From contig OY727100.1 of NCBI GenBank assembly GCA_963402885.1, positions 12,555,395 through 12,619,394 on the forward strand: a DNA stretch of 64,000 nt. Direction: 5' to 3'. This stretch comes from Antedon bifida (lineage: Eukaryota > Echinodermata > Crinoidea > Comatulida > Antedonidae). The notes below the pieces were generated by a model that worked only from the letters and a program-made list of their open reading frames with translations, made no database searches and was not told the origin of the DNA. Made by a program: the position numbers and the translations under genes. This document shows, piece by piece, positions 1,055-54,956 of the stretch. Every line of letters begins with the position of its first letter. The first letter of the stretch is position 1.

Positions 1055-1159
1055 AACATGCGAAAATGTCCACCTTTTTATTTTTCGATCTAACTGGTTA
1101 TTATAGCATAATCGACGTGATCAAAACACATTATTCAACTATGCGCATGTTAATTATTT

Positions 1160-3545
1160 AAGAAATAAATAGGTCGAAAATTGGCCATTTTTCGAAAATT
1201 TTCCTGTACTATAGTACAGGGATTTTTTCAAAAAATGGGCAAATTTCGACCTTTTTATTTTTCGATAAAACTGGTTACTATAGCATAATTGACATGCGCA
1301 GAACCCATTATTCGACTCTGCGCATGTTTATTATGCTATAGTAACCATTTATGTCAAAAAATAAATAGGTCGAAAATTGGCCATTTTTCGAAAATTTTCC
1401 TGTACTATAGTACAGGGATTTTTTCAAAAAATGGGCAAATTTCGACCTTTTTATTTTTCGATAAAACTGGTTACTATAGCATAATTGACATGCGCAGAAC
1501 CCATTATTCGACTCTGCGCATGTTTATTATGCTATAGTAACCATTTATGTCAAGAAATAAATGGGTCGAAAATTAGCCATTTTTATTTTTCGATAAAACT
1601 GGTTACTATAGCATAATTGACATGCGCAGAACCCATTATTTGACTCTGAGCATGTTTACTATGCTATAGTAAATTGGCAATTTTTCGAAAATTTTCCTGT
1701 ACTATAGTACAGGGATTTTTTCAAAAAATGGACAAATTTCGACCTTTTTATTTTTCGATAAAACTGGTTACTATAGCATAATTGACATGCGCAGAACCCA
1801 TTATTCGACACTGCGCATGTTTATTATGCTATAGTAACCATTTATGTCACAAAATAAAAGGGTCGAAAATTGGCCATTTTTATTTTTCGATAAAACTGGT
1901 TGCTATGGCTTAATTGACATGCGCAGAACCCATTATTCGACTCTGCGCATGTTTATTATGCTATAGTAACCATTTATGTTAAGAAATAAATAGGTCGAAA
2001 ATTGGCCATTTTTCGAAGGTTTTCCTGTACTATAGTACAGGGATTTTTTCAAAAAATGGGCAAATTTTGACCTTTTTATTTTTCGATAAAACTGGTTACT
2101 ATAGCATAATTGACATGCGCAGAACCCATTATTTGACTCTGCGCATGTTTACTATGCTATAGTAACCATTTATGTCAAAAAATAAATAGGTCGAAAATTG
2201 GCAATTTTTCGAAAATTTTCCTGTACTATAGTACAGGGATTTTTTCAAAAAATGGGCAAATTTCGACCTTTTTATTTTTCGATAAAACTGGTTACTATAG
2301 CATAATTGACATGCGCAGAACTTATTATTTGACACTGCGCATGTTTATTATGCTATAGTAACCATTTATGTCACAAAATAAAAGGGTCGAAAATTGGCCA
2401 TTTTTATTTTTCGATAAAACTGGTTGCTATGGCTTAATTGTCATGCGCAGAACCCATTATTCGACTCTGCGCATGTTTATTATGCTATAGTAACCATTTA
2501 TGTCAAGAAATAAATAGGTCGAAAATTGGCCATTTCTCGAAAATTTTCCTGTACTATAGTACAGGGATTTTTCCAAAAAATGGGCAAATTTCGACCTTTT
2601 TATTTTTCGATAAAACTTGTTATTATAGCATAATTGACATGCGCAGAACCCATTATTCGCTCTGCGCATGTTTATTATGCTATAGTAACCATTTATGTCA
2701 AGAAATAAATGGGTCGAAAATTGGCCATTTTTATTTTTCAATAAAACTGGTTACTATAGCATAATTGACATGCGCAGAACTAATTATTCGACTCTGCGCA
2801 TGTTTACTATGCTATAGTAACCATTTATGTCAAGAAATAAATAGGTCGAAAATTGGCCATTTTTCGAAAATTTTCCTGTACTATAGTACAGGGATTTTTT
2901 CAAAAAATGAGCAAATTTCGACCTTTTTATTTTCGATAAAACTGGTTACTATAGCATAATTGACATGCGCAGAACCCATTATTTTCACTGCGCATGTTTA
3001 TTATGCTATAGTAACCATTTATGTCGCAAAATAAAAGGGTCGAAAATTGGCCATTTTTATTTTTCGATAAAACTGGTAGCTATGGCTTAATTGACATGCG
3101 CAGAACCCATTATTCGACTCTGCGCATGTTTATTATGCTATAGTAACCATTTATGTTAAGAAATAAATAGGTCGACATTTGGCCATTTTTCGAAAATTTT
3201 CCTGTACTATAGTACAGGGATTTTTTCAAAAAATGGGCAAATTTCGACCTTTTTATTTTTCGATAAACCTGGTTACTATAGCATAATTGACATGCGCAGA
3301 ACCCATTATTTGACTCTGCGCATGTTTACTATGCTATAGTAACCATTTATGTCAAAAAATAAATAGGTCGAAAATTGGCCATTTTTCGAAAATTTTCCTA
3401 TACTATAGTACAGGGATTTTTTCAAAAAATGGGCACATTTCGACCTTTTAATTTTTCGATAAAACTGGTTATTATAGCATAATTGACATGCGCAGAACCC
3501 ATTATTCGACACTGCGCATGTTTATTATGCTATAGTAACCATTTA
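1160..3545. repeat. Higher-order satellite block, copy 1
   Basis: This stretch recurs at 4,534-6,922 with an offset of 3,374-3,377 bp. The same order of long and short units is kept, as are private variants: CTCGAAAATT near 2,533 and 5,910, a TTATTTTCACTGC junction near 2,979 and 6,356, and GATAAACCTGG near 3,265 and 6,641. Confidence 0.85.
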
Positions 3546-4533
3546 TTTCACAAAATAAAAGGGTCGAAAATAGGCCTTTTTTATTTTTCGATAAAACTAG
3601 TTACTATAGCATAATTGACATGCGCAGAACCCATTATTCGACTCTGCGCATGTTTATTATGCTATAGTAACCATTTATGTCAAAAAATAAATAGGTCGAA
3701 AATTGGCCATTTTTCGAAAATTTTCCTGTACTATAGTACAGGGATTTTTTCAAAAAATGGGCAAATTTCGACCTTTTTATTTTTCGATAAAACTGGTTAC
3801 TATAGCATAATTGACATGCGCAGAACTTATTATTCGACACTGCGCATGTTTATTATGCTATAGTAACCATTTATGTCACAAAATAAAAGGGTCGAAAATT
3901 GGCCATTTTTATTTTTCGATAAAACTGGTTGCTATGGCTTAATTGACATGCGCAGAACCCATTATTCGACTCTGCGCATGTTTACTATGCTATAGTAACC
4001 ATTTATGTTAAGAAATAAATAGGTTGAAAATTGGCCATTTTTCGAAAATTTTCCTGTACTATAGTACAGGGATTTTTTCAAAAAATGGGCAAATTTCGAC
4101 CTTTTTATTTTTCGATAAAACTGGTTACTATAGCATAATTGACATGCGCAGAACCCATTATTTGACTCTGCGCATGTTTACTATGCTATAGTAACCATTT
4201 ATGTCAAAAAATAAATAGGTCGAAAATTGGCCATTTTTCGAAAATTTTCCTATACTATAGTACAGGGATTTTTTCAAAAAATGGGCAAATTTCGACCTTT
4301 TTATTTTTCGATAAAACTGGTTACTATAGCATAATTGACATGCGCAGAACCCATTATTCGACACTGCGCATGTTTATTATGCTATAGTAACCATTTATTT
4401 CACAAAATAAAAGGGTCGAAAATTGGCCATTTTTATTTTTCGATAAAACTGGTTGATATGGCTTAATTGACATGCGCAGAACCCATTATTCGACTCTGCG
4501 CATGTTTACTATGCTATAGTAACCATTTATGTT

Positions 4534-6922
4534 AAGAAATAAATAGGTCGAAAATTGGCCATTTTTCGAAAATTTTCCTGTACTATAGTACAGGGATTTT
4601 TTCAAAAAATGGGCAAATTTCGACCTTTTTATTTTTCGATAAAACTGGTTACTATAGCATAATTGACATGCGCAGAACCCATTATTCGACTCTGCGCATG
4701 TTTATTATGCTATAGTAACCATTTATGTCAAAAAATAAATAGGTCGAAAATTGGCCATTTTTCGAAAATTTTCCTGTACTATAGTACAGGGATTTTTTCA
4801 AAAAATGGGCAAATTTCGACCTTTTTATTTTTCGATAAAACTGGTTACTATAGCATAATTGACATGCGCAGAACCCATTATTCGACTCTGCGCATGTTTA
4901 TTATGCTATAGTAACCATTTATGTCAAGAAATAAATGGGTCGAAAATTAGCCATTTTTATTTTTCGATAAAACTGGTTACTATAGCATAATTGACATGCG
5001 CAGAACCCATTATTTGACTCTGCGCATGTTTACTATGCTATAGTTAATTGGCAATTTTTCGAAAATTTTCCTGTACTATAGTACAGGGATTTTTTCAAAA
5101 AATGGGCAAATTTCGACCTTTTTATTTTTCGATAAAACTGGTTACTATAGCATAATTGACAAGCGCAGAACCCATTATTCGACACTGCGCATGTTTATTA
5201 TGCTATAGTAACCATTTATGTCACAAAATAAAAGGGTCGAAAATTGGCCATTTTTATTTTTCGATAAAACTGGTTGCTATGGCTTAATTGACATGCGCAG
5301 AACCCATTATTCGACTCTGCGCATGTTTACTATGCTATAGTAACCATTTATGTTAAGAAATAAATAGGTCGAAAATTTGCCATTTTTCGAAAATTTTCCT
5401 GTACTATAGTACAGGGATTTTTTCAAAAAATGGGCAAATTTCGACCTTTTTATTTTTCGATAAAACTGGTTACTATAGCATAATTGACATGCGCAGAACC
5501 CATTATTTGACTCTGCGCATGTTTACTATGCTATAGTAACCATTTATGTCAAAAAATAAATAGGTCGAAAATTGGCCATTTTTCGAAAATTTTCCTGTAC
5601 TATTATAGTACAGGGATTTTTTCAAAAAATGGGCAAATTTCGACCTTTTTATTTTTCGATAAAACTGGTTACTATAGCATAATTGACATGCGCAGAACCC
5701 ATTATTCGACACTGCGCATGTTTATTATGCTATAGTAACCATTTATTTCACAAAATAAAAGGGTCGAAAATTGGCCATTTTTATTTTTCGATAAAACTGG
5801 TTGCTATGGCTTAATTGTCATGCGCAGAACCCATTATTCGACTCTGCGCATGTTTATTATGCTATAGTAACCATTTATGTCAAGAAATAAATAGGTCGAA
5901 AATTGGCCATTTCTCGAAAATTTTCCTGTACTATAGTACAGGGATTTTTCCAAAAAATGGGCAAATTTCGACCTTTTTATTTTTCGATAAAACTTGTTAT
6001 TATAGCATAATTGACATGCGCAGAACCCATTATTCGCTCTGCGCATGTTTATTATGCTATAGTAACCATTTATGTCAAGAAATAAATGGGTCGAAAATTA
6101 GCCATTTTTATTTTTCAATAAAACTGGTTACTATAGCATAATTGACATGCGCAGAACTAATTATTCGACTCTGCGCATGTTTACTATGCTATAGTAACCA
6201 TTTATGTCAAGAAATAAATAGGTCGAAAATTGGCCATTTTTCGAAAATTTTCCTGTACTATAGTACAGGGATTTTTTCAAAAAATGAGCAAATTTCGACC
6301 TTTTTATTTTCGATAAAACTGGTTACTATAGCATAATTGACATGCGCAGAACCCATTATTTTCACTGCGCATGTTTATTATGCTATAGTAACCATTTATG
6401 TCGCAAAATAAAAGGGTCGAAAATTGGCCATTTTTATTTTTCGATAAAACTGGTAGCTATGGCTTAATTGACATGCGCAGAACCCATTATTCGACTCTGC
6501 GCATGTTTATTATGCTATAGTAACCATTTATGTTAAGAAATAAATAGATCGACATTTGGCCATTTTTCGAAAATTTTCCTGTACTATAGTACAGGGATTT
6601 TTTCAAAAAATGGGCAAATTTCGACCTTTTTATTTTTCGATAAACCTGGTTACTATAGCATAATTGACATGCGCAGAACCCATTATTTGACTCTGCGCAT
6701 GTTTACTATGCTATAGTAACCATTTATGTCAAAAAATAAATAGGTCGAAAATTGGCCATTTTTCGAAAATTTTCCTGTACTATAGTACAGGGATTTTTTC
6801 AAAAAATGGGCAAATTTCGACCTTTTAATTTTTCGATAAAACTGGTTATTATAGCATAATTGACATGCGCAGAACCCATTATTCGACACTGCGCATGTTT
6901 ATTATGCTATAGTAACCATTTA
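4534..6922. repeat. Higher-order satellite block, copy 2
   Basis: Second copy of the 1,160-3,545 block. It is almost identical apart from point changes and a 3-bp insertion at the palindrome centre near 5,598, which explains the offset moving from 3,374 to 3,377. Similarity stops where 3,545 reads ATTTCACAAAATAAAAG and 6,922 reads ATGTCAAGAAATAAATG. Confidence 0.85.
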
Positions 6923-7459
6923 TGTCAAGAAATAAATGGGTCGAAAATTGGCCATTTTTATTTTTCGATAAAACTGGTTACTATAGCATAATTGACATGC
7001 GCAGAACCCATTATTTGACTCTGCGCATGTTTACTATGCTATAGTAACCATTTATGTCAAAAAATAAATAGGTCGAAAATTGGCAATTTTTCGAAAATTT
7101 TCCTGTACTATAGTACAGGGATTTTTTCAAAAAATGGGCAAATTTCGACCTTTTTATTTTTCGATAAAACTGGTTACTATAGCATAATTGACATGCGCAG
7201 AACCCATTATTCGACACTGCGCATGTTTATTATGCTATAGTAACCATTTATGTCACAAAATAAAAGGGTCGAAAATTGGCCATTTTTATTTTTCGATAAA
7301 ACTGGTTGCTATGGCTTAATTGACATGCGCAGAACCCATTATTCGACTCTGCGCATGTTTACTATGCTATAGTAACCATTTATGTTAAGAAATAAATAGG
7401 TCGAAAATTTGCCATTTTTCGAAAATTTTCCTGTACTAGTACAGGGATTTTTTTAAAAA

Positions 7460-8600
7460 ATGGGCAAATTTCGACCTTTTTATTTTTCGATAAACCTGGT
7501 TACTATAGCATAATTGACATGCGCAGAACCCATTATTTGACTCTGCGCATGTTTACTATGCTATAGTAACCATTTATGTCAAAAAATAAATAGGTCGAAA
7601 ATTGGCCATTTTTCGAAAATTTTCCTATACTATAGTACAGGGATTTTTTCAAAAAATGGGCACATTTCGACCTTTTAATTTTTCGATAAAACTGGTTATT
7701 ATAGCATAATTGACATGCGCAGAACCCATTATTCGACACTGCGCATGTTTATTATGCTATAGTAACCATTTATTTCACAAAATAAAAGGGTCGAAAATAG
7801 GCCTTTTTTATTTTTCGATAAAACTGGTTACTATAGCATAATTGACATGCGCAGAACCCATTATTCGACTCTGCGCATGTTTATTATGCTATAGTAACCA
7901 TTTATGTCAAAAAATAAATAGGTCGAAAATTGGCCATTTTTCGAAAATTTTCCTGTACTATAGTACAGGGATTTTTTCAAAAAATGGGCAAATTTCGACC
8001 TTTTTATTTTTCGATAAAACTGGTTACTATAGCATAATTGACATGCGCAGAACTTATTATTCGACACTGCGCATGTTTATTATGCTATAGTAACCATTTA
8101 TGTCACAAAATAAAAGGGTCGAAAATTGGCCATTTTTATTTTTCGATAAAACTGGTTGCTATGGCTTAATTGACATGCGCAGAACCCATTATTCGACTCT
8201 GCGCATGTTTACTATGCTATAGTAACCATTTATGTTAAGAAATAAATAGGTCGAAAATTGGCCATTTTTCGAAAATTTTCCTGTACTATAGTACAGGGAT
8301 TTTTTTCAAAAAATGGGCAAATTTCGACCTTTTTATTTTTCGATAAAACTGGTTACTATAGCATAATTGACATGCGCAGAACCCATTATTTGACTCTGCG
8401 CATGTTTACTATGCTATAGTAACCATTTATGTCAAAAAATAAATAGGTCGAAAATTGGCCATTTTTCGAAAATTTTCCTATACTATAGTACAGGGATTTT
8501 TTCAAAAAATGGGCAAATTTCGACCTTTTTATTTTTCGATAAACCTGGTTACTATAGCATAATTGACATGCGCAGAACTTATTATTCGACACTGCGCATG
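7460..8600. repeat. Second higher-order satellite duplication (copy of ~3,235-4,375)
   Basis: Matches the 3,235-4,375 interval at an offset of 4,227-4,228 bp. Shared rare variants include CCTATACTATAGTACAGG, GGGCACATTTCGACC and GAAAATAGGCC. It overlaps the end of copy 1 of the first block, so two separate segmental amplifications are layered on the monomer array. The match weakens after about 8,500. Confidence 0.75.
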
Positions 8601-10431
8601 TTTATTATGCTATAGTAACCATTTATGTCAAAAAATAAAAGGGTCGAAAATTGGCCATTTTTATTTTTCGATAAAACTGGTTGCTATGGCTTAATTGACA
8701 TGCGCAGAACCCATTATTCGACTCTGCGCATGTTTATTATGCTATAGTAACCATTTATGTCAAGAAATTAATAGGTCGAAAATTGGCCATTTCTCGAAAA
8801 TTTTCCTGTACTATAGTACAGGGATTTTTTCAAAAAATGGGCAAATTTCGACATTTTTATTTTTCGATAAAACTGGTTACTATAGCATAATTGACATGCG
8901 CAGAACCCATTATTTGACTCTGCGCATGTTTACTATGCTATAGTAACCATTTATGTCAAAAAATAAATAGGTCGAAAATTGGCCATTTTTCGAAAATTTT
9001 CCTGTCAAAATTTTGACATCAAATTTATGTCAAAAAATAAAAGGGTCGAAAATTGGCCATTTTTATTTTTCGATAAAACTGGTTGCTATGGCTTAATTGA
9101 CATGCGCAGAACCCATTATTCGACTCTGCGCATGTTTATTATGCTATAGTAACCATTTATGTCAAGAAATAAATAGGTCGAAAATTGGCCATTTCTCGAA
9201 AATTTTCCTGTACTATAGTACAGGGATTTTTTCAAAAAATGGGCAAATTTCGACCTTTTTATTTTTCGATAAAACTGGTTACTATAGCATAATTGACATT
9301 CGCAGAACCCATTATTCGACACTGCGCATGTTTATTATGCTATAGTAACCATTTATGTTAAGAAATAAATAGGTCGAAAATTGGCCATTTTTCGAAAATT
9401 TTCCTGTACTATAGTACAGTGATTTTTTCAAAAAATGGGCAAATTTCGACCTTTTTATTTTTCGATAAAACTGGTTACTATAGCATAATTGACATGCGCA
9501 GAACCCATTATTTGACTCTGCGCATGTTTACTATGCTATAGTAACCATTTATGTCAAAAAATAAATAGGTCGAAAATTGGCAATTTTTCGAAAATGTTCC
9601 TGTACTATTATAGTACAGGGATTTTTTCAAAAAATGGGAAAATTTCGACCTTTTTTATTTTTCGATAAAACTGGTTACTATAGCATAATTGACATGCGCA
9701 GAACTTATTATTCGACACTGCGCATGTTTATTATGCTATAGTAACCATTTATTTCACAAAATAAAAGGGTCGAAAATTGGCCTTTTTTATTTTTCGATAA
9801 AACTGGTTGCTATGGCTTAATTGACATGCGCAGAACCCATTATTCGACTCTGCGCATGTTTATTATGCTATAGTAACCATTTATGTTAAGAAATAAATAG
9901 GTCGAAAATTGTCCATTTTTCGAAAATTTTCCTGTACTATAGTACAGTGATTTTATCAAAAAATGGGCAAATTTAGACCTTTTTATTTTTCGATAAACCT
10001 GGTTAATATAGCATAATTGACATGCGCAGAACTAATTATTCGACTCTGCGCATGCTTACTATGCTATAGTAACCATTTATGTCAAGAAATAAATAGGTCG
10101 AAAATTTGCCTTTTTTCGAAAATTTTCCTGTACTATAGTACAGGAATTTTTTCAAAAAATGGGCAAATTTCGACCTTTTTATTTTTCGATAAAACTGGTT
10201 ACTATAGCATAATTGAAATGCGCAGAACCGATTATTCGACTCTGCGCATGTTTATTATGCTATAGTAACCATTTATGTCTCAAAATAAAAGGGTCGATAA
10301 TTTTGACATTTTTGAAAATTCTACTATAAGTAGGCCTACAAGAACTTTTTTTTCCCTAAATGACCAAATTTCAACCTTTCTTTTTTCGATATAACTGTAG
10401 CATAATTGACATGCGCATATTTTTATTGTTA

Positions 10432-10437
10432 AAAGAT
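10432..10437 (-). promoter_or_regulatory. Candidate poly(A) signal of the acyltransferase gene
   Basis: TTTATT on the plus strand reads AATAAA on the minus strand, about 190 nt after the stop codon. It lies inside the diverged edge of the palindromic satellite, so the 3' UTR may run into the array. A single hexamer in AT-rich DNA is weak evidence. Confidence 0.3.
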
Positions 10438-10626
10438 ATGTTGAGGTATTATGCGCAGAACAGATATGTGATTCTGCGCATGTCAATTTTTAGAGGATTT
10501 TTTTCGAAAAATGAGAAAATATCGCCTTATTGAACTAAATAAAAACAAATAGATCCATACTTTGGTTGATTTTTCGCAAATACTTTTTACATAGCTGTGA
10601 ATGTTTAGAACTGAAGTAATTTGTTA

Positions 10627-13600
10627 TTAGACTTTCTCATCATTCTCTGTTCTTTTTGTATCATAGGGTTTGTGTTTTCCGGAATTGTTCAGCTTACTTA
10701 ACAGTTCAACTAAGTTCGAAAATGGCAGCTCCACTAAGATGTAAACAATCCCGGCAATAGAAAACGACGCCAAGACAAATGCAAAAAAATAAAAACACTG
10801 AAATAGAAAAAAATAATAATGCATTACACTCACACACAGGCAAAGTGGTCAAAGTTGTTCAAAAGTCATAATAATTCGGAGCAATGTTTTGCATATGATT
10901 CGCCGGCAGGCAATAGAAAGAATTCTGATGTAAACTCTAAGGAACGTGACGTATGCGCCTAGAATTTGAATCAATTGAGCAGTGTACATGATGTCAGCAA
11001 GAACACAATGCAGTGTAACTCGTATAAAATAACTAAAAACGCAAAGTAAAGTTATGCAACATACCATCATTGTGTACGAATAATGAATCGGCTGGAATGC
11101 ACTGTAAAAGAACACCATCATCAGTATTGGGTGAACCAGGTAAGTGGTAAATACGAGGCGACTGAGTGGCACCCAAGCGGAAAAACTCAGAAACTTATTA
11201 ATCCATCCTATAAAAAAATAATAAAGATACGCCTTGATTTATCAACGTAAATAGGTAAGTCACTAGGAACTTTCGATTATGCGACGTAACTCTTCGAGAT
11301 CCCTGTTACAACCGCTAATGTAGAAAACGCCAGCTAATGTCGAAACAACCGTTAATGTAGAACAATCCACCGCTTATGTAGTAAAACCTCCAGCTTATGT
11401 AGAAACACCAACAGCTTATGTAGTAAATAAAAATCAACACCACCTAATGTAGAAACAGTCAACAGCTTATGTAGTAACGAAAATTGCCAGCTAATGTAGA
11501 AAATGTTATATATTTTACAAAAATGTCTAATTCATGTGCAAGCATCGATCTTTACTTAGCAATCAGTCTGTCCGCCTCTCGTAAGCAACCAACTTTCTAA
11601 AACGACTACACATCGTAATAAGCTACCATCTCTGTTAAGGGACCGCTTCTCATAATCGACCACCTCTCATAAGGAATCACCTCCTCTCATAAGGGACCGC
11701 TTTTCATAATCGACCACCTCTCGTAAGCGACCACCTCTCCTAACGACCAAACCTCTCGTAAGTGACCACCTCTTTTAAGGGACCACGACCTCTTTCTCTC
11801 TATTAAAGAACCGCTTCTCATAATCGACTATCTCCCGTCACAACGACCTCTGGTAAGTGACCACCTCTATTGAGCGACCACCGTCTCTTTTAAGGGACCA
11901 TTTATCATAACCGAGAAGCGGTCTCTTAACAGAGATAGTGGTCGTTCAATAGAGGTGGTCACTTTCGAGAGGTCATTGTGATGGGAGATGGTCGATTATG
12001 AGAAGCAGTCCCTTAATAGAGGTAGTGGTCCTTTAAAAGATGTCGTCACTTACGAGAGGTGGGGTCGTTAAGAGAGGTGGTCCTTTAAAAGAGTCGTCAC
12101 TGACGATTATGAGAAGCGGTCCTTTAATAGAGAGAAAGAGGTCGTGGTCCCTTAAAAGAGGTGGTCGCTTACGAGAGGTGGTCGATTTTGAGATTTTATT
12201 ATTTTTATTTACTACATAAGCTGTTGGTGTTTCTACATAAGCTGGAGGTTTTACTACATAAGCGGTGGGTTGTTCTACATTAACGGTTGTTTCGACATTA
12301 GCTGGCGTTTTCTACATAAACGGTTGTAACAATCCCGCCTGTTATGTTGCACGCGGAGGAGCAATGGACAATTGTCTGTCCGTATTTAATCACACTTCAG
12401 ATTACTAACATTCCATAGGCGTACTAAATACTAGCTACTAAAATACAGTCAATAATATAGTCACATGTGTCTAAGAAGTTGTGTTAAGGAGATATAGTGA
12501 CGACGTAATACCCTTTGGTCATGTACCGTATAATAGCAAAAATAAACATCACTTACCGCCATAGCCGTAGAAGCAAGCAAATACGACCCAGGTAAGTGCT
12601 ATTGCCCACGAAATCCGACTTAGACCCTCATAAATTGAATTCGCAGTAACCGATATCGGATCACCGTGGTGGGACGGGTACAATCCAAAGACAACCAGTA
12701 TCATAGTAGCAACTGAGAGCCCCCAGCCACAGAGCATCGCAACCTTAATGTTTACACAGTTTTAAAAAAAGTATAAAAAAGGTCCATACAACTTAAATTC
12801 AGTATAGAACATTAAGATGAAAATATTGGTTATGAGTGTTACTTACTGGTGATAGTTTGACAACCTGATCGTTGGCTTTTAGGCGTGTCATACCATAGCC
12901 CAAAAAAAGGCCAATCATATATGGCGAAATACGACAGTACGGCTTAGCATACACGACAGATACATATTCTTCACCTTTAGGTCTAAAATAAGAAGATATT
13001 AGTGTATCAATATTTTTTTCGGAAATTCTTAATCCTTAGCCGTTTGCTCAAACGTGGAAGAAGTAATTCTCGTCGGTTCAAACGTTAGAAACGCTTAACA
13101 CAATACTCACAAATACTATTAAAAACGTTAAATTTAGACTTAGAATGATTAGTAGCTGTCTAACCTTTGATCAATAATACCCAAAAATCCAGATGGGAAC
13201 TCATTGACAGCCATCAAGGCAATGGTGGATGCGATGCTGACGCAACATATGAGAGTCACTAGGCTTATTCCAAGAAATTTAGACCTTTAAAAGAAAATAA
13301 ACAGAAATCTTCATTTAAATTATACATTTTAGAGCTTTTTTTAAAACATGATACAGTATGATTCAGCATTCGAGCAGATCATCAGAAAAGCTTCATTTTT
13401 GTTTTCTTTAATGTTGGATTTCAACATACGACATCTCGTCTTTATGATGTCATGTGTATTGAAATGACAAGCTCTTTTTTTTCTTAGCACTTACTTATAT
13501 AGCACAATCAGCACGAAAGAACTAAAGACATAGAATTGCATGTCGTTTGCTAGGTACCATGACCATTCAACACACTGCAAAAGAAAGAAATAAGCGCTTC

Positions 13601-16600: not shown

Positions 16601-18505
16601 TTCTGAATGTGAACATATTCCACACAACATGTGGCATGTACCACATTGTTCTTATTGTATTGCAGATATTTATAACGATGCTACAAGATAGGATGTTGAG
16701 AAGACATTGGAATCGATGCATGTTAAAACCATAATTTAGTTATACAAAATCGATATATTATTAATTACAAACTACCAGTTAATTGTCGGTAATTGATACT
16801 TACACAACGCAGTAGAAGCCAGGATCGTAAGGTTTGACTGGATTTTGTGCACAGTTCAACAACACCCGATTAATGTGTACGCTCTTTAAAGGCAATGTTG
16901 CTGAAATAACAAATATCGTATCATTAGGCAGCTTTCGTTTTGCGACGCGACGACCTAGCAGAATGGGAGTACGAGGGCCTAAAGTATGCATTACATCATT
17001 TTTCAAGTCGTCGTCCAAGTCTGTAAAATTCGTTTTCGCGACTACCGTATACACCCAAAACAAGTACAAATGCGCATGTCTGTGATAAAAGATCGTCACT
17101 AGAATCGACCAAATCGGGTGGTATGAAGACAAAGAATGTCAAACCAAACTCAACGTTTGCAAATACCAAACTGTACCTCAATATGACTCACAAGAGTGGG
17201 CCTACTAGATCCTGTCGATATTTTAGATAATAAAACTATGACTATTTTCTATAACTTAAAGCTTTGTTCCCACTAGCACTCAACACAATGACGTAAGCCG
17301 CGACGCAAGCGAATTGACCAATCCAAGCGATGGATCATTCAAACCGTTCGTTGTGCCTTACGTCCTTGCGTTGCGTTATAGTGGGAACCAAGCTTGAGTA
17401 AAAAGCAACATTACCGTGACTGTTGCAGTATTACCTAACGAGTCTGCCAAGTTATTAGATAAAACTTCCTCTGAACAGGATTGCGGAACACACAATCCCC
17501 AATGAAACACGTTTGATAACCATCCGATCTATTAAAAACACCAAATTATTTTGAATGAATTAGTTGTCCTTTGTTGACATATTTGTTTTTACATTTTCGT
17601 AAAACCAAAAACTCGATGAGGTTTCCGTTTTGAAAAAAACATTATCCATTTAAATTCACTATACTAATTTTGCATTGTTTGGTTTTTAGATTTGGGAGAG
17701 AACTTTTGAAAGAGGACTTTCTTCATTGACTGTTCTAAAACATATCGGACGAGCAACTAATTCTATGTCGTAATGTTGAATACTTAATATATTCATACAG
17801 TACCGGTATCCGATTACTTTATTGCGTAAATAAATACGTTTGTAATTTTGAATTAACCTTTGCTTTACTTTGGGTTTTCTAAAAGTGAAATACCATTACT
17901 TCATAATTGAAGTATTATTCTTACAAAATTAAGATAATTTTACAACGAACTTACCGATTCAGAATCATTTACAGACATGTGTAAATCTGCTAAGCAAAAC
18001 TTAAATTCAGAAATGGACTGACATTCGTCGAAGTGTCCAAGTGCAACCCAGTTACCAACGAGAAGACCGGCCGGTAGCTTCCCTGTTGCATCGTCAGACA
18101 TGCTGGTAAACCAACCTTTCAAACAAAAACAAAAAGCGAAAAACAGAAAAAAAATAATACGATAGAGAATGTCGACGCGTTTTTCATATGAGAGACAAGG
18201 TTGACGCGTTTTCAGAAATATGATTGGGTTAGATTCGTATTTATGAAACTTAAATTGAAACAGATATACATACATAAGCTGTGGGTGTATTTGGAATCTG
18301 TATATCACATACGGTTAATTGGTAGACACATTTTGCATTCCATACTTGCCTAACTGTTTACCAAATATTAATTGTTGTCCAATGGCATTCCATACTTACC
18401 GAAGTTTTTACCAAATAATAACTGTAGATCCACTTGGCATTCCGTACTTCCAACAACGTTCACGAATGTGGCAACTGATAGTATTATTAGGCGAAACGAA
18501 TACAT
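10627..18505 (-). CDS. NRF-6-like acyltransferase-3 membrane protein, complete, 15 coding exons
   Basis: Exons, 5' to 3' on the minus strand: 18400-18505, 17955-18115, 17435-17528, 16804-16900, 16085-16248, 15728-15904, 14998-15091, 14521-14613, 14076-14247, 13495-13574, 13165-13284, 12847-12982, 12557-12743, 11065-11207, 10627-10797. All have GT-AG borders and compatible phases; they sum to 1,995 nt, 664 residues plus stop. Residues 1-20 are a signal peptide (MYSFRLIILSVATFVNVVGS). About 25-150 is the extracellular NRF domain, with Cys-rich GLCVPQSCSEEV at 100-111. A membrane segment follows at ~153-167. About 222-645 is a multipass acyltransferase-3 domain. It keeps the R-x10-H signature (R244, H255 in GIRVVSILWVIFGHT), WYLANDMQFY (392-401), KPYCRISPYMIG, WVPLSRL and a terminal VELPFSNL. 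Nematode NRF-6/NDG-4 relatives act in lipid or drug transport; the acyl donor and acceptor are unknown. No key residue is missing. It could be one member of a larger paralogous family. Confidence 0.95.
11304..12331. mobile_element. Foldback (long inverted repeat) element in the last-but-one intron
   Basis: The ends TGTTACAACCG... and ...CGGTTGTAACA are inverted repeats and are flanked on both sides by ATCCC (11,299-11,303 and 12,332-12,336), a likely 5-bp target duplication. The left arm carries tandem variants of GCTTATGTAGTAAAACC and then repeats of GACCACCTCTCATAAG. The right arm (about 11,915-12,331) is their reverse complement, so about 1 kb can fold into one hairpin. The left arm has an extra ~130 bp near 11,440-11,570. 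There is no transposase ORF. It sits between the exons at 12557-12743 and 11065-11207, whose splice sites are intact. Confidence 0.85.
13835..13930. repeat. Short AT-rich tandem repeat in an intron
   Basis: About three degenerate ~33-bp copies built on ATTCTGATTGTATAAAAG, inside the intron between acyltransferase exons 14076-14247 and 13495-13574. Confidence 0.6.
15366..15645. repeat. TTA microsatellite and 18-bp minisatellite in an intron
   Basis: A TTATTA run at 15,385-15,406 is followed at 15,560-15,643 by about five copies of an 18-bp unit (CGTAAACGTCATTATCGC). Both lie in the intron between acyltransferase exons 15728-15904 and 14998-15091. Confidence 0.75.
16384..16540 (-). mobile_element. 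tRNA-derived SINE in an acyltransferase intron
   Basis: On the minus strand the head reads TAGCTTGGTGATTATGATG (A-box-like, about 16,513-16,532). A B-box-like GGTTTCAACTA follows at ~16,480-16,490, then the body CAACTCCACTCCCAA. The same head and body recur at 31,658-31,745, so this is a dispersed family. Confidence 0.6.
17256..17398. mobile_element. MITE family C (AAGCTTGGTTCCCACT ends), intronic copy
   Basis: Palindromic element of about 140 bp with ends TAAAGCTTTGTTCCCACTAG and TAGTGGGAACCAAGCTT. The interior holds inverted CGCAACGCAAGGACGTAAG-like arms and CCAATCCAAGCGATGGATCA. It lies between acyltransferase exons 17435-17528 and 16804-16900. Relatives lie at 19,700, 23,011, 28,212 and 43,735. 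Confidence 0.8.
18342..18443 (-). repeat. Tandem duplication spanning the exon-1 donor of the acyltransferase gene
   Basis: Two ~50-52-bp copies (18,392-18,443 and 18,342-18,391) share GGAATGCCA, ATTTGGTAAA and the splice-donor context. The first copy contains the end of coding exon 1 and the donor G|GTAAGTAT. The second, intronic copy carries GCAAGTAT at the same place, which fits a GC-type donor. A partial third copy follows. Confidence 0.75.
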
Positions 18506-20905: not shown

Positions 20906-21140
20906 GCGCGCCGCCTCATACAGTTTACGTCTGCCAATCTTCCCTGGTTAAACACTACAGTTGGCGCGCCGCCTCATACAGTTTACGTCTGTCAATCTTC
21001 CCTGGTTAAACACTACAGTTGGCGCGCCGCCTCATACAGTTTACGTCTGTCAATCTTCCCTGGTTAAACACTAGTTGGCGCTCCGCCTCATACAGTTTAC
21101 GTCTGTCAATCTTCCCTGGTTAAACACTACAGTTGGCGCA
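20906..21140. repeat. 58-bp minisatellite just 3' of the NETO gene
   Basis: Four near-perfect copies plus a partial fifth of a 58-bp unit (GCGCGCCGCCTCATAC...CTGGTTAAACACTACAG). Unit starts are at 20,906, 20,964, 21,022 and 21,078. The unit contains the 8-bp palindrome GGCGCGCC and is much more GC-rich than its surroundings. It ends about 60 bp beyond the NETO stop codon. Confidence 0.9.
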
Positions 21141-21199: not shown

Positions 21200-24100
21200 T
21201 CAAATCGGCGGATCAAAAACCAAGGTTTCATATCCAGGTGGCTTATAGCAACTATGCAATTGTACTTGATGTGTTGTGGATTTACTCGACTGTGTTTTCT
21301 TCACCGACTCTGGTTTATTGTCACGTGGTATAGGGTCACCATTCATAGTCTCATACGTGAATGCACTTTGAACTGATTGTATCCCATTGGATACGGGATT
21401 TAAGGTCAAAGGTAAATATTCTCTTCCTTGCTGATGATGTCTATGTCTTGTTCCTCCTGGAATATCTTCGTTCGTGTCCATTAGGTAATTTATATTTTGG
21501 AAGTTTTGTTCGCTTATTTTTCGTTCTTTCTCTCTTACTGTGGCTTTTTTCTTTGTTTTATGGATGGAATGACGACAGACGAAACATAAAGTTACAATGA
21601 TTACGACACTGATGACACCTATCATGCACCCAAGCATTGTGTCAACTTTGTCAAAAAAGTTTTTGCTTTCAATTATATCTGTTGGTTTAAAGAAATAGAG
21701 AATTGAAATGAAACACAATTTATACACAAGTAACACATCATATGGGAAATAAACAAACATGTATTAGATAAAAAAAAATTTTAAAAAAAGCTTACCGCAA
21801 TCCTGTTCATCTAATGATAATTTGTGGCAGTCTACAATTCCATTACATACAAGGTGTTTATCTATACAAATCTCATCATTACATGAGAAATTTATTGTTT
21901 CATTACAAGGACCTGGAAAAAAGGTATATAGGTTACGTCATTATTACGACGAATCGTGGAGAAATAACTCTATCGACAAATAAGAAAAATAATAATAATA
22001 TTCGTTCTTATATAGCGCTTATTACATAATACTTCTAAGCGCTTCACATTGTTTATGATCAAACACGTATGGATACATACTCCCGTAATGCAGCTAGTAA
22101 ACAGCGCAAATTTGTGTTTGATCTAACCGGGTACCCATACACCTGGGTGGAGAGAGGTAAAATGATTCATAGACAATTTAGTTTAGGTGCGCTAATGTCG
22201 TTATCGTCTTCCAATATTCCTAGCATGCGCAAATCGTCGCAAAGCTGAAATATTCCTTGATCTTTACAACCTGATAAAGAAACATAAATCTTACCATCTC
22301 TATAAGTTGAATAAATAATCCTGAACGAACTTCTTCTACCGTTTCCCTTCGCTTTAAATCTAACGAACGCTTTACTCGTTATCATTGCTACATAAGGGGC
22401 CGACGTACTACAGTATCGCACTCTCTGCAGATTTTGAGATTCTTGGATAGAATCACTGCTCAAACGTTCATAAAGAGTGATAGAATTATCTTCACAACTA
22501 TGAGGTACTCTAAGGTTAAATATGTCAAATTGAAATAATAGCTAAAGAAAGAAAGAAAAATATACGTTTAGGACTAATAATGACAATTAGGCTGATGTAG
22601 TGCGACGTGTTCGTGTAAAGCTCTACATTATATCAAACTTCATGTGATGTGTCCATATATGACGACGCCATATCATTAACAACTAGTTTGAAAGTGTAGA
22701 CAGAGCTTAACATAAGACAGTGCGTTAATCTAGATCTAGGTTCCTATACCTTGTAACTTAACGATCTTGGCCAAATTACCCAGACGCACTCCAGTTCATC
22801 ATCTGCTGAGAAACCCGACATATTATATAATTTATGGAAATCCGACGATGAAATAATTCCATCTTGTTCTTCTAGCATAAAAACGCAATCTGAATAGTTA
22901 AACGCAATAAAAAAAATAGTTAAACGCAATAAATAAATAGTTAAACGCAATCTAAATGGTTAAGAAAATAATTCAATTTTGTTACACTTATGCTATGATT
23001 TGATAGCTATTAAAGCTTGGTTCCCATTGGGACACAACACAAAGGCGTAAGTGTATCGCAAGTAACTTAACCAATCACGACGCGATGAATCATCTGATTG
23101 CGATTGCGATTGGTCAATCATCTCAGTTCTGTTGCGCCTGCGTACGTTGTTCCGTTGCGTCAAAGTGGGAACCAAGTTTAAGAAATTATTATTACACAAA
23201 ATTAATGTTTAATTTGAATTTTAATTAGAACATTTTTTTTTAATTACCTGGTTCTGGTGGCTCGGGTGGAGGTTCAACTACACAGAAAACAAAAAAAAAA
23301 TAATTAAATTGGTACTAAATAACAAATAAATGACGTAGCGTCATACTAGGTCCATGCCACGACCAACAAAACATGAAGAGGTCCTAGTAGACGCAAATCG
23401 AAAACTCCCAATGATCAACTGTACAGTAAGTAGTGATTGTTGTATTTTTACATAAATAATATTAACTGACCTTTGATATATTTATAAGAAGCATTAAATC
23501 CTTCTCCATCGATCATATCATCAGCTATAAAATGTGCCCAGGCGTATCTACCAGTCGTTCTGACGGGAGCAGGCTTTCCACTGCCGCAGAATTTACCAAG
23601 AAGCGGCGAGAATCCAAACATACCATCTCTGATTTCTAACCTATCAAACTTACAATTTTCTGATGATTCCATTGAAAGGGCAGTTGGAAAAGAAAATTCA
23701 ACAACGTAATTTTCGGGGGCTGAAAATAATTTAAAGATAATAATAATAATAATAATTTAAAGAGCACTAGAAAAGTTGGTCTCATAAAAAGAAATTGTCG
23801 ATAACTTTTTTGTTGCAGTACCTACCTTTAAACAAATATACTTGTTCATCATTTGTGATATATTCCTCTGGATAAAAAGGACTATAAAAACTTCCAGACA
23901 TACCGGTATCATTCGAAAATTCTTCGTAATAAGGCGGTTCTAGATAGAAACCAGGATAGGGAAAATCTGAATCCATCGAAGGATTTTCATCCCCTAAAAT
24001 AAATAAAAAACATACTTCCATTCTTTAGCTTAAGCTCTGTCTACACTATCAAATTAAATTTGACAAAAAAAGTGTGGTGTGTCCATATATGGTGTGATAT

Positions 24101-37540: not shown

Positions 37541-38039
37541 TATTACAGCAAGGTATGAGGAGACAAAGACGAAAATGAAGATGATGATGATGATTATGAC
37601 GACAATAATGATAGAGTGATGCGGATTTGGACGACATTTTACCAATAAAATGCTACGATCTCAACATTATACATTATTCGCTGGCATCTCATTTCATCCT
37701 GAAATCACGTAATATAATTGGTTTAAAAACAGTGTTGAAGCGACATATAATTTGTTTTTTTCAATTACGTTAATAAACATGATATAATCTAACCTAATTA
37801 GGCGTGATTGTGCTGTGTTGTCACGTATACATTGTTTAATCATTCAATAAGTTGATATCGAAACCATGTCAGCCACATTTCAGATTTATTCGATTATTGT
37901 ACTTGTTTATATTGTTATCTATTATTGATATGTGCCTTGCAGTTTTGAAAACAATGAGGACAGTGAAGGTATTATGTAAAACGTATGAGGAGGAAGAGGA
38001 TGAAGAAGTAAAATGATCTATGATGATGATAATGAAAGA

Positions 38040-38168
38040 AGATGATAAATGATGATGATGATGATGATAATGACGATAATGGTGATGATAAAAGGGACGA
38101 TGATAATGATGGTGAAGATGATAATAATAATGATGATAATGATGATGCTGATAATGATGATGATCAAA

Positions 38169-38206
<38 letters not shown>

Positions 38207-38480
38207 AATAATAATAATGATGATGATGATAATGATGATGAAGATGATAATAATGATGATGATGATGATAATAATGATGATAATGGTGACGATGATAATG
38301 ATGATGCTGATAATGATGATGATGATCAAAATGATGATGATGATGATGATGCTGATAATAATGATGATGAAGATTATAATAATAATGATGATGATAATAT
38401 TGATGATAATGACGATGAAGCTGCTGATTCATTTCATTTTTTTATGATAATAATGATGATGATGATGATAGATAATATAA
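38040..38480. repeat. GAT/AAT trinucleotide-derived array (~440 bp)
   Basis: Imperfect GATGATAAT repeats fill the interval, which produces poly-Asp/Asn, poly-Met/Ile and poly-His/Tyr frames on both strands. None is preceded by a splice or start context, and codon-like structure is explained by the triplet period alone. A weaker patch lies at 37,525-37,615. Confidence 0.95.
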
Positions 38481-44380: not shown

Positions 44381-44829
44381 TGAACACGCTGTTCAAAAAT
44401 CACCACCTGTTCACGTGATATTCAGTTTTAATTGTAAAGTCAATAATAAATGCAAGCATACACTAATTGATATTAGGTTAGTTGGTTATTATTGTAGCAT
44501 CAGTTTACAGAAATATTACAATTTCCAAAGTATCGTATCAATAATACTAATCACCATAGATTCATTTAAATTCCAAAATGGGACGAAGCGACAAGTCTAA
44601 TGGAATTACTGATTGAGGATTCATAATTTAATTATTTCAGACTGCGCTGGATAATATATACAATTTGAATCACATTAAATTATATGTCGCTTGTCAGCTT
44701 TAAAACTTCAATAATTGATGATGTCGATAATGATGATTATGATGATAAAGAGACGACGATGTATTACGATTATGAAATAAAAATTATAGTTATGACGGAG
44801 AAGTGACGATGACCATGTCTAGATCACGA

Positions 44830-45525
44830 TTTAAATGATGACGATAACGATGGTAACCATATCTAGATGATGCTGACTATGTAGATCATGATGTAGATGA
44901 TGTAAATGATGACGATAACGATGGTAACCATATCTAGATGATGCTGACTATGTAGATCATGATGTAGATGATTTAGATGATGACGATAACGATGGTAACC
45001 ATATCTAGATAATGCTGATTATGTAGATCATGATGTAGATGATATAGGTAGATGACTATAACGATGGTAACCATATCTAGATGATGCTAACTATGTAGAT
45101 CATGCTGTAGATGATGTAGATGATGACGATAACGATGGTAACCATATCTAGATGATGCTGACTATGTAGATCATGATGTAGATGATGTAGATGATGACGA
45201 TAACGATGGTAACCACACCTAGATGATGTAGATCATGATGTAGATAATGTAGATGATGATAACGATGGTAACCATATCTAGATGATGCTGACTATGTAGA
45301 TCATGATGTAGATGATGTAGATGACGATGGTAACTATATCTAGATAATGCTGATTGTGTAGATCATGATGTAGATGATGTAGGTAGATGATGACTATAAC
45401 GATGGTAACCATATCTAGATGATGCTGACTATGTAGATCATGATGTAGATGATGTAGGTAGATGATGACTATAACGATGGTAACCATATCTAGATGATGC
45501 TGACTATGTAGATCATGATGTAGAT
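44830..45525. repeat. ~69-bp minisatellite, about ten copies
   Basis: The unit contains GATGACGATAACGATGG, TAACCATATCTAGATGATGC and TATGTAGATCATGATGTAG. Copies differ mainly in the number of GAT triplets, and two are shortened (near 45,200 and 45,310). It probably grew from a GAT microsatellite. Confidence 0.92.
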
Positions 45526-46258
45526 GATAAGAGTAGGAGTCATGCTATCGCAAAGCGTGAGGATTTCTAAAAACAATAATATTACTAAGAACTGACAGAT
45601 AACCAACATTCATTGCTGTTATTAATCCCAAAGGTCGGGCAATTCGCCAATGTCGTAACAAAAAATGTGACGCGCTCGTTCAAAAAGATATTATGGTTTT
45701 ACTAATTTTACCAGATCTGTGTATACACGGTATCATCTTATCAATTTCACAGAAACGCTGCAACATGATTACAAGAATTACACAGAAACTCTTTAACAAG
45801 ATTACAAGAATAAGAACTGCTGTTGAAATTTGAGAATAGCCAAGACAAACATAACTTTTATGTTGCGGGTTTATGATAAAATGAGTTTTCATTTGATTTT
45901 TCCACCTATACTGAATCCTGTTCAAACACTATATAGTATAAATTACTGCGAAACACTTTTAGTGTCATTCCGATGCCCAACATTGTTCGATTTAACTTGT
46001 TTAAAATGTCATGATGGTTGAAATAATGGCTGGTCGTCGCGTGTTTCATGCATTATGGTAATTTGTAAATATAAAATGCAAATGGACTGTTTTAAAAGAA
46101 AAGGTATTGTATTGTATTACAATACATTTGTATTTGCATAATTGGCAACGGGCAAACCAGATGTATTATTACAACAATGGCACGCACATTGTGCCGTTAA
46201 CTGTATTATTGAAAACATTTGCACGCGAATAGGACTATGTCACAGGATTGGAAAAGGG

Positions 46259-52924: not shown

Positions 52925-53552
52925 TGGTTGTAATGATGATGATGATGATGATGATGACGGCGATGATGATGACGATGATGGTAATGATGATGACGATGAT
53001 GGTAATGATGGTGACGATGATGGTAATGATGTTGACGGCGATGATGACGGCGATAATGATAACGATGATGGTAATGATGATAACGATGATGGTAATGATG
53101 ATGGTAATGATGATGACGATGATGATGACGGCGATAATGATAACGATGATGGTAATGATGATAACGATGATGGTAATGATGATAACGATGATGGTAATGA
53201 TGATAACGATGATGGTAATGATGCTGACGATGATGGTAATGATGATGACGGCGATGACGATGATGGTAATGATGATGACGGCGATGATGATAACGATGAT
53301 GACGATGATGGTAATGATGATGACGATGATGGTAATGATGATGACGATGATGGTAATGATGATGACGATGATGGTAATGATGATAACGGTGATGGTAATG
53401 ATGGTGACGATGATGGTAATGATGATGACGATGATGGTAAAGATGACGACGATGATGGTAATGATGACGATGATGATGGTGGTAATGTTAATGACGATAA
53501 CGGTAATGATGATGACGATGATGGTAATGATGATGACGATATGATGAAGACA
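52925..53552. repeat. GATGGTAATGATGATGAC minisatellite (~630 bp)
   Basis: About 35 units of 15-21 bp, all multiples of three, built on GATGATGACGATGATGGTAA. It therefore stays open for more than 200 codons in three frames (poly-Asp/Asn/Gly; poly-Met/Thr/Val; reverse poly-Ile/Thr). No start context, splice signal or flanking coding sequence supports translation. Confidence 0.95.
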
Positions 53553-53559
53553 ATGTGAT

Positions 53560-54956
53560 GACAACTGAATTAGTCCTGATAGTGTGGTGATGAGAATGAC
53601 AATATAGATTTACGACATGGGAAAAATACTGTTATGATGACAATAATCATTATCATAAATGAATTGCTTCATTCAAACTATAATAAAACTACAAAACACA
53701 CAACATTAAGTTATTTCTACACAGCATGCTTACAGGCACAATTATAACAACCACACATTTTCTAAACTGTCGAATCATGAATTAAATTCATAAAACTAAA
53801 TTATATTAGTTGAAAACGATAATTACATGCTGTATAACATTATTGAAATATCACTTACGAAAATCACACACTTATACATCATTTTAAAGAAAGGTTTAAA
53901 TGGTAAAACAATAATACGCAATTGCAATGTATTTAAATCACCCTATGGGGACTACAGTGATTTTGACTGTTATAATATACATTGTAAAATGCATTATTGC
54001 ACAATAGCACTAATAATCATGACCCGGTTTTATTAGCCGGACACCTCTCGTGTAAAGCTGACTGTAGGCCTCTTTGTTCTGCTGCGATGATTGTGTTATT
54101 TTCGCCTATAATTTTTTTTTATTTCAAACTGATTTTAGAGGTCAGGTGTAAAAAAAAATGGTTCAGGTTGATTATTAAAGACAGAACAGGGAAGAATTTT
54201 AGCCTTAATGTATTCTTTAACATGCATTTTATGTCAAAATTATTCTGCTGAAGTTACTGCAGTAACTAAATGTATTTACTGCAATAACATGCAAAATTCA
54301 ATAAACAGTGTATATGATGATGACGAAAAAAAACTTGTTAAATAATGAAATAGTATAATAGTAAAGAAAACGTAGTAGAATAATTTTGACATGGCTACAT
54401 ATGCTCTCTTTCTGGTATGGTACAACATTTAACATTCTAATGTGACATATATCATACATATTACAGGGTACAGTAAAATATTATGACAACTGGTTGATTA
54501 AAGCATGCAACACATAGAAACATTATAATATACAAATCATTGTAATCATGACAAATGGAGGCGGTGTACAGTAGTGCAGCAAGCCTCAAATAAGGGTCAA
54601 ATGGAGAGAAAGCAACTCCCCACCCCTCTCCCCTAGAAAAAACCCACCGTCATAAGAGGGTGGGCTTATACCCGAGTGCGTGATGCGATTTAAAGCGCAA
54701 CATGACAGTTTATTGTGCTCAACGTATGTATGATACATAGTGTATTGATTCAACGATTCAACATTCCACGAATATTTATATGTATAAATTTGGCATGTTT
54801 ACGAGCTAGTATGAAACAATTTCAATAATTGACTTGGTTTCTGAATAACAGATGATTGATATAGGCTGATGCATTTATACAGAAATAATAATAATATATT
54901 ATCTATATAAATAATAATTAAATAACTGTCTATAACCTAATTTTGATATTTGGTTA
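53560..54956. other. Non-genic stretch
   Basis: AT-rich, no supported exon. 54,560-54,680 is slightly GC-richer without an open frame. Confidence 0.4.

Follow-up and report, generated by a model that had tools for sequence, protein, structure and literature searches.

A genome-wide superfamily of short palindromic satellite arrays in the crinoid Antedon bifida is the landing site of a Dada-like transposon

The target classes known for Dada transposons are conserved RNA genes, and their choice of target is entangled with gene function. Single off-target copies have been reported, such as one in a hAT element (PMC3706591, PMC8869645; here and below, statements about cited papers refer to the parts of them that we draw on). 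In Dada-tA, TTGCGC takes the place of the target hexamer, at times on one side only, and descent of Dada-tA from Dada-U6 was raised as a speculation in the same paper from 2022 (PMC8869645). Here we describe a palindromic satellite in the crinoid Antedon bifida, together with a transposon, which we call element X, that lands at the centre of the satellite's units and is a probable Dada element. The satellite lies in a window of 64,000 nucleotides (assembly GCA_963402885.1, contig OY727100.1, positions 12,555,395 to 12,619,394 of the forward strand), and we searched the genome for its relatives (315.6 Mb in 27 contigs; L and C numbers are our labels for loci and contigs).

The units of the window array come in two types, of 196 bp and 132 bp, which share one polarity. 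The sequence CCTGTACTATAGTACAGG, which is the centre of the long unit, occurs 30 times in the array (with up to 3 mismatches), and inverted junctions of the form CATGCGCAGA..TCTGCGCATG occur 54 times (with up to 2 mismatches per arm). We cut 52 consecutive units at their junction centres and compared each to its own reverse complement. The identities were 0.69-0.83 for the 31 long units (194-206 bp; mean 0.79) and 0.68-0.77 for the 19 short units (131-132 bp; mean 0.71), and merely 0.62 and 0.54 for two units of 165 bp. When we shuffled the bases of one long unit 200 times, the mean was 0.53 and the maximum 0.60; 200 shuffles of one short unit, whose own value is 0.68, gave a mean of 0.53 and a maximum of 0.63. 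The initial annotation had described every monomer and every junction as palindromic. This holds for the 196-bp and 132-bp units and for the junctions, and fails for both units of 165 bp and for the array's decayed edges.

Deleting 64 bp between two TTTTT repeats of the 196-bp unit gives the 132-bp unit; the deletion is asymmetric about the centre and takes it out. The earlier description of the shorter unit (given as ~131 bp) as the ~196-bp palindrome without its middle was therefore correct. So was its suggestion of strong hairpin potential. Folded as RNA, the unit at 4684-4879 has a predicted energy of -104.8 kcal/mol, as compared to a mean of -31.3 for shuffled sequences (z -20.6; 0 of 200 were as low), and folded as DNA it has -64.9, as compared to -15.4 (z -17.5). 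Judged by the 98.4% identity of two 3.6-kb blocks, parts of the array have been copied recently.

Across the genome, we found 1,645 exact copies of CCTGTACTATAGTACAGG (none for the reversed control) and 1,574 junction motifs (885 + 689; control, 0). With head-to-tail tandem units and many genomic copies, this is a satellite, and its arrays are small and scattered along the contigs. The exact centres in the first 9.5 Mb of C1 cluster in 20 places, all of which we took with their flanks; the arrays sum to at least about 0.3% of this sampled part. The core arms are common to these loci, and the spacer varies between subfamilies: the window's junction palindrome is found in some loci, a GCATATATGGCAATATTATTGC spacer in others (104 exact copies of a 41-base stretch genome-wide; control, 0), and a third type in L014. 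In most loci the two arms of the unit keep fixed differences from each other, and therefore the arrays are polar though the units are nearly symmetric. In L020, L023, and L024, by contrast, the arms on the two sides are alike. A further subfamily, in L034-L036, has a different centre, with CCTGTGG-TCCC-CCGCAGG in some units (L034, L035). The window array is one member of a genome-wide superfamily of short palindromic arrays around CCTGTACTATAGTACAGG, whose spacer depends on the subfamily. As a separate observation, a satellite unit at L014 (~1000-1345) is interrupted by an insert that resembles a miniature inverted-repeat transposable element (MITE), with ends AAGATGTATTGTCCCCC / GGGGGACAATATATCTT.

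Three of the sampled loci (L011, L012, and L020) have a common flanking sequence that starts at the centre palindrome. This is element X, which is ~7.3 kb long and is frequently found in head-to-tail tandem. We found 26 matches to its 3' end and 22 to its 5' end. From the counts below we left out six X-X tandem junctions (identified by coordinates; one was read) and one truncated match per end, which leaves 19 3' ends and 15 5' ends. The satellite centre adjoins 15 of these 19 3' ends (15 of 16 without three copies that are 84-88% identical to the query) and 13 of the 15 5' ends, or 28 of 34 non-tandem ends in all. Comparing the flanks of X to the satellite arrays with BLAST gave counts identical to those from reading the sequences. 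X sits at the dyad with an exchange of 6 bp, and next to its 3' end comes the AGGG half of the palindrome. The satellite-flanked 3' ends point towards one arm in 10 cases and towards the other in 5; therefore X uses either half of the palindrome as its target. The satellite centre is the specific landing site of X. Most of the 3'-end matches (23/26) are at least 98% identical, and X is young. No X junction was seen by eye in the window array itself.

Two other features of X are worth recording. At L049 (~7262-7299), 350 bp from its 3' end, X holds a diverged satellite core (ATGTACTATAGTACAAGG and both arms; nhmmer E 5.6e-9). At L029 (C1:529000-538900), two opposed copies of X form a giant inverted repeat, with arms of more than 4.4 kb that are mostly 99% identical, around a satellite array of two units.

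The product of X matches the Pfam family DUF6729 (E 1.8e-80). It has a CCCC finger of the form C-x4-C-x32-C-x2-C (the published Dada spacings are x4, x34, x2; PMC3706591) and a C-terminal CCHC finger of the form C-x2-C-x8-H-x8-C (published, x2, x9, x8; PMC3706591). It also has a DDE-like triad with DxxH 24 residues after the second D. The distance from the first to the second catalytic D, 68, is the value for zebrafish Dada-U6_DR. (We took the catalytic spacings from motif positions and counted the exon join by hand.) Tandem copies of X are divided by a single hexamer in the one junction that was read, as described for Dada. Dada elements are described as lacking terminal inverted repeats; none was evident by eye in the ends of X. 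A search of solved structures with one frame of X gave no match.

The genome has 29 matches to DUF6729, of which 21 have the score of X. Two others lie inside a U6 small nuclear RNA (snRNA) cluster on C16; one of these is 69% identical to the X protein over 239 residues. A U6 gene in this cluster is broken exactly at GCGCAA, at position 65, which is the published Dada-U6 site; it lies 3.9 kb from the other DUF6729 match, not the one that was compared. X is very probably a Dada element. The cluster as a whole (C16:3620483-3644426) contains two DUF6729 frames, partial U6 copies, and the one U6 gene broken at GCGCAA. A likeness of the satellite arms to Tc1/mariner ends was considered and was abandoned in the light of the Dada evidence.

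The empty satellite centre reads CTA-TAGTAC-AGGG. Among the 15 satellite-flanked 3' ends of X, the hexamer is TTGCGC in 13 and TAGTAC in 2; among the 13 satellite-flanked 5' ends, it is TAGTAC in 8, shortened to TAGTA in 1, and TTGCGC in 4. Dada insertions are described as duplicating 6-7 bp of the target; in the six pairs of X ends with both ends read, the two end hexamers match in three and differ in three. Such mixtures might suggest a tyrosine recombinase, which we rejected: the protein has DDE-type motifs, and mixtures of this kind have been reported for Dada (PMC8869645). Sites without X hardly ever carry TTGCGC: TATTGCGCAGGG occurs 3 times in the genome (control, 4). One of these is a satellite site without X that bears TTGCGC, 0.8 kb from an X, and it may be the trace of an excision or a conversion; at the remaining two, no satellite arms were seen by eye.

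Read on the opposite strand, the U6 hexamer GCGCAA becomes TTGCGC, and there it is likewise followed by AGGG. None of the ends of X was recognised by eye as U6, as compared to the 28 of 34 in satellite. By analogy with Dada-tA, the TTGCGC that X carries suggests that it keeps an old U6 address and has switched from U6 to the satellite. X would derive from a U6-targeting Dada lineage, the move to the satellite would have gone through the common motif of hexamer plus AGGG, and the satellite would offer X a plentiful and harmless harbour.

The dyad is also where the units change most. The hexamer CTATAG occurs both on and off the dyad. It has changed in length at 37 of 235 centres (29 distinct locus-variants) and at 8 of 481 copies off the dyad (6 distinct), so length change is ~9 times commoner at the dyad (Fisher p 2.4e-12, which is optimistic because units within an array are related). 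In three loci the centre has been lost by distinct deletions; these span 64, 74, and 108 bp and show microhomology of 5, 3, and 4 bp, respectively. The length changes and the centre deletions are compatible with hairpin formation during replication. An alternative cause of the length changes is cutting by the transposase, since one of its inferred cuts is at the dyad. At the other inferred cut of X there are 8 and 11 distinct length variants, versus 1 in a junction-spacer control. One cut-site variant, found in 63 of 211 copies, is a subfamily that has spread: its centre, CCCTTACTATAGTACAGGG, lacks one base precisely where the second cut of X is inferred (L037, L038, L039, L045, L046). The initial annotation had considered cruciform extrusion plausible. 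The centre-specific length changes and the microhomology deletions are indirect evidence for it, and transposase cutting fits them as well. Either hairpins at the dyad or transposase cuts there could produce the centre length changes and the centre deletions, including the one that yields the 132-bp unit. The units would then spread through unequal exchange and through duplication of local stretches.

Taken together, we consider it likely that the satellite superfamily, a Dada-like X that lands at its centres, the descent of X from a U6-targeting lineage, and instability at the dyad together explain these observations. Several points weigh against this explanation. Six of the 34 ends of X lie outside the satellite (3' ends at L062, L064, L065, and L066; 5' ends at L030 and L031), although three of these six come from copies that are just 84-88% identical to the query and L031 still has CCCTGTA next to its hexamer. 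The C1 loci were picked by an exact match to the centre, so part of the centre's conservation follows from that choice. X is placed among Dada elements by its motifs, and the comparison of proteins covers one relative from the same genome. The largest difference in spacing is from the second D to the E, which is 190 in X versus 176 as published. The end hexamers are mixed, so most pairs do not show a clean target-site duplication. Proximity, at 3.9 kb, is what ties the broken U6 gene to a DUF6729 frame. Hairpins at the dyad are predicted from sequence. Finally, the covariation between the arms was 0.089, versus 0.084 in shuffles, and was reached by 94 of 500 shuffles; therefore nothing shows that the hairpin is kept by selection. 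(The covariation was above that of slid controls, as expected given that the structure came from one row.)

A more ambitious version of our explanation is that X and the satellite shape each other. A Dada element of the U6 type would have switched its address; cutting of the dyad or of its hairpin would drive the mutations and deletions at the centre and the growth of the arrays; and, close to its 3' end, X now bears a diverged version of the target that it inserts into. We regard this as tentative, and as rather doubtful. If it were true, a DNA transposon would be helping to maintain its own host satellite.

The initial annotation favoured another origin, in which a MITE (a short non-autonomous transposon with inverted ends) was amplified in tandem. 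The units are indeed palindromic over most of their length, and the diverged single core within X (E 5.6e-9) indicates that a unit can occur singly, away from any array. However, all 20 of the sampled C1 loci have at least 3 core matches, some of which lie in X itself (2 of 5 in L011, 1 of 8 in L012, and 1 of 18 in L020), and none of these 20 loci, which were all picked by an exact centre, is a solo unit. (These 20 are drawn from several hundred places, with a bias towards exact centres.) Between arrays, the sampled flanks have no sequence in common other than one inserted transposon and a small number of short stretches found in 1-3 loci, and no target duplication was seen in them. Nor do the arrays end at a fixed phase: 11 of 63 boundaries are within 25 bp of a centre, where ~27% would be expected if they were uniform, which is a weak test because edge units are decayed. 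(The 63 boundaries exclude X junctions and most cut edges; one, at L039, is 14 bases from the end of the fetched stretch.) These boundaries also failed to confirm an impression, gained from a few of them, that the centre is the terminus of a mobile unit. We also rejected carriage by a Helentron-type element with conserved flanks, because the flanks of the sampled loci are not conserved. Two patterns that we searched for as free array ends (17 and 167 sites) turned out to be centre variants and another subfamily, as judged from their letters with few sites read. The tandem-MITE origin is thus unsupported, and we consider it improbable, though the satellite may go back to an ancient MITE.

The units could instead be a multicopy gene for a hairpin RNA, which X would target as Dada elements target RNA genes (PMC3706591, PMC8869645). 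The units fold far better than shuffled sequences, as an RNA gene might, but any palindrome is expected to fold strongly. Also, the arms do not covary beyond shuffles. Our search of the window for Rfam families and ribozymes gave nothing at the gathering score; across 10 loci it gave 38 matches, all below the gathering score, of which the best was mir-85 at L022 (46.3 of 68 bits). We think that an RNA gene is quite improbable.

Still less probable is that the palindromes are maintained by selection, or by a role in centromeres or replication. Dyad symmetry of satellites has been proposed, in the literature as far as we draw on it, to matter at centromeres. Here, the arrays are small and scattered along the contigs, and the arms hold fixed mismatches across loci. 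There is no excess of covariation, and we rejected selection on pairing because the arm covariation was no higher than in shuffles.

The least credible reading is an assembly artefact, either in the X-satellite junctions or in the arrays: the giant inverted repeat of X around two units at L029 (arms of more than 4.4 kb) and the 98% identical blocks within the array might raise that suspicion, but the same base-exact joins are found on C1, C9, C10, C13, and C14, in different satellite subfamilies, and in both orientations.

Features of the satellite array in the window, with their coordinates
Feature	Position	Strand	Evidence or remark
Satellite array, palindromic 196-bp and 132-bp units, both edges decayed	1055..10531	.	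tandem, motif, and unit analysis
Typical 196-bp unit, bounded by two junction centres	4684..4879	.	self-reverse-complement identity 0.83; RNA fold z -20.6
Dyad centre CCTGTACTATAGTACAGG of unit 4684-4879	4773..4790	.	X sits in this sequence at other loci
Junction palindrome CATGCGCAGA..TCTGCGCATG	4667..4700	.	motif search
Typical 132-bp unit	4356..4487	.	self-reverse-complement identity 0.68; shuffle maximum 0.63
First copy of 3.6-kb duplicated block within array	1154..4762	.	98.4% identical to 4527-8137
Second copy of 3.6-kb duplicated block within array	4527..8137	.	98.4% identical to 1154-4762
Centre variant CCTGTACTATTATAGTACAGG, +3 bases at dyad	5594..5614, again 9599-9619	.	sequence
Centre variant CCTGTACTAGTACAGG, -2 bases at dyad	7430..7445	.	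sequence
Centre substituted by CCTGTCAAAATTTTGACATC	9001..9020	.	sequence

Outside the array, the window holds a foldback-like element of ~1 kb at 11304-12331. Its outer inverted arms, of 131 nt and 98% complementary, are built of short tandem repeats of the CAGCTAATGTAGAAA type, and its inner part consists of 17-bp repeats of the GACCACCTCTC type in inverted halves. On the minus strand, Pfam searches of two frames (17940-18314 and 21200-21763) gave an NRF N-terminal domain that passed its cut-off (E 3.6e-7), and a match to TMIE that fell below threshold (21 of 27 bits). Other tandem arrays lie at 20906-21139, 44828-45528, 38020-38418, and 52933-53561; among them are 4 copies of a 58-bp GCGCGCC unit, 10 copies of a 71-bp unit, and triplet repeats rich in ATG.

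X and its relative in the U6 cluster offer a within-genome pair in which to study a change in the address of a transposase, with the same register of hexamer plus AGGG in different surroundings. The satellite, with one hexamer both at the dyad and away from it, also has a built-in control for tests of hairpin extrusion in cells.

How does X compare to the Dada elements that have been described? Like them (PMC3706591, PMC8869645), it has a DDE triad with DxxH, CCCC and CCHC fingers with similar spacings, and an intron, and at 7.3 kb it is inside the Dada range of 4.7-11 kb. It also resembles them in its site-specific insertion into a multicopy sequence and in its tandem copies one hexamer apart. 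As in Dada-tA, the target hexamer is replaced by TTGCGC, and AGGG lies beside the hexamer as in U6. Unlike the described Dada elements, whose targets are U6, U1, tRNA, and 5S genes (PMC3706591, PMC8869645), X targets a palindromic satellite. Targets in multicopy RNA genes are typical of Dada, though they do not serve to define each of its families. Among the open-licence papers listed by our searches, we found no report of Dada in satellite DNA.

The satellite, too, has parallels. The initial annotation had set it apart from ordinary satellites as these lack strand symmetry, which was overstated, because palindromic monomers are known in Tribolium (PMC13081366). TmSat2 of Tribolium madens and satellites of T. 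brevicornis and Trichogramma likewise have long inverted arms in each monomer and very low predicted folding energies (PMC13081366). Those monomers measure 385-1061 bp and, in Tribolium, lie in large (peri)centromeric blocks; in contrast, the Antedon satellite has units of at most 196 bp, small dispersed arrays, and a transposon at the dyad. The arrays borne by Helentrons in oysters (PMC7492417) are likewise short, dispersed across the genome, and linked to mobile elements. In the oyster, however, the array is inside the element and its flanks are conserved, whereas here the element is inside the array and the sampled flanks are mostly unrelated. Satellites with palindromic monomers were already known; what appears to be new, as judged from the papers searched, is a satellite as the specific target of a Dada-type transposon.

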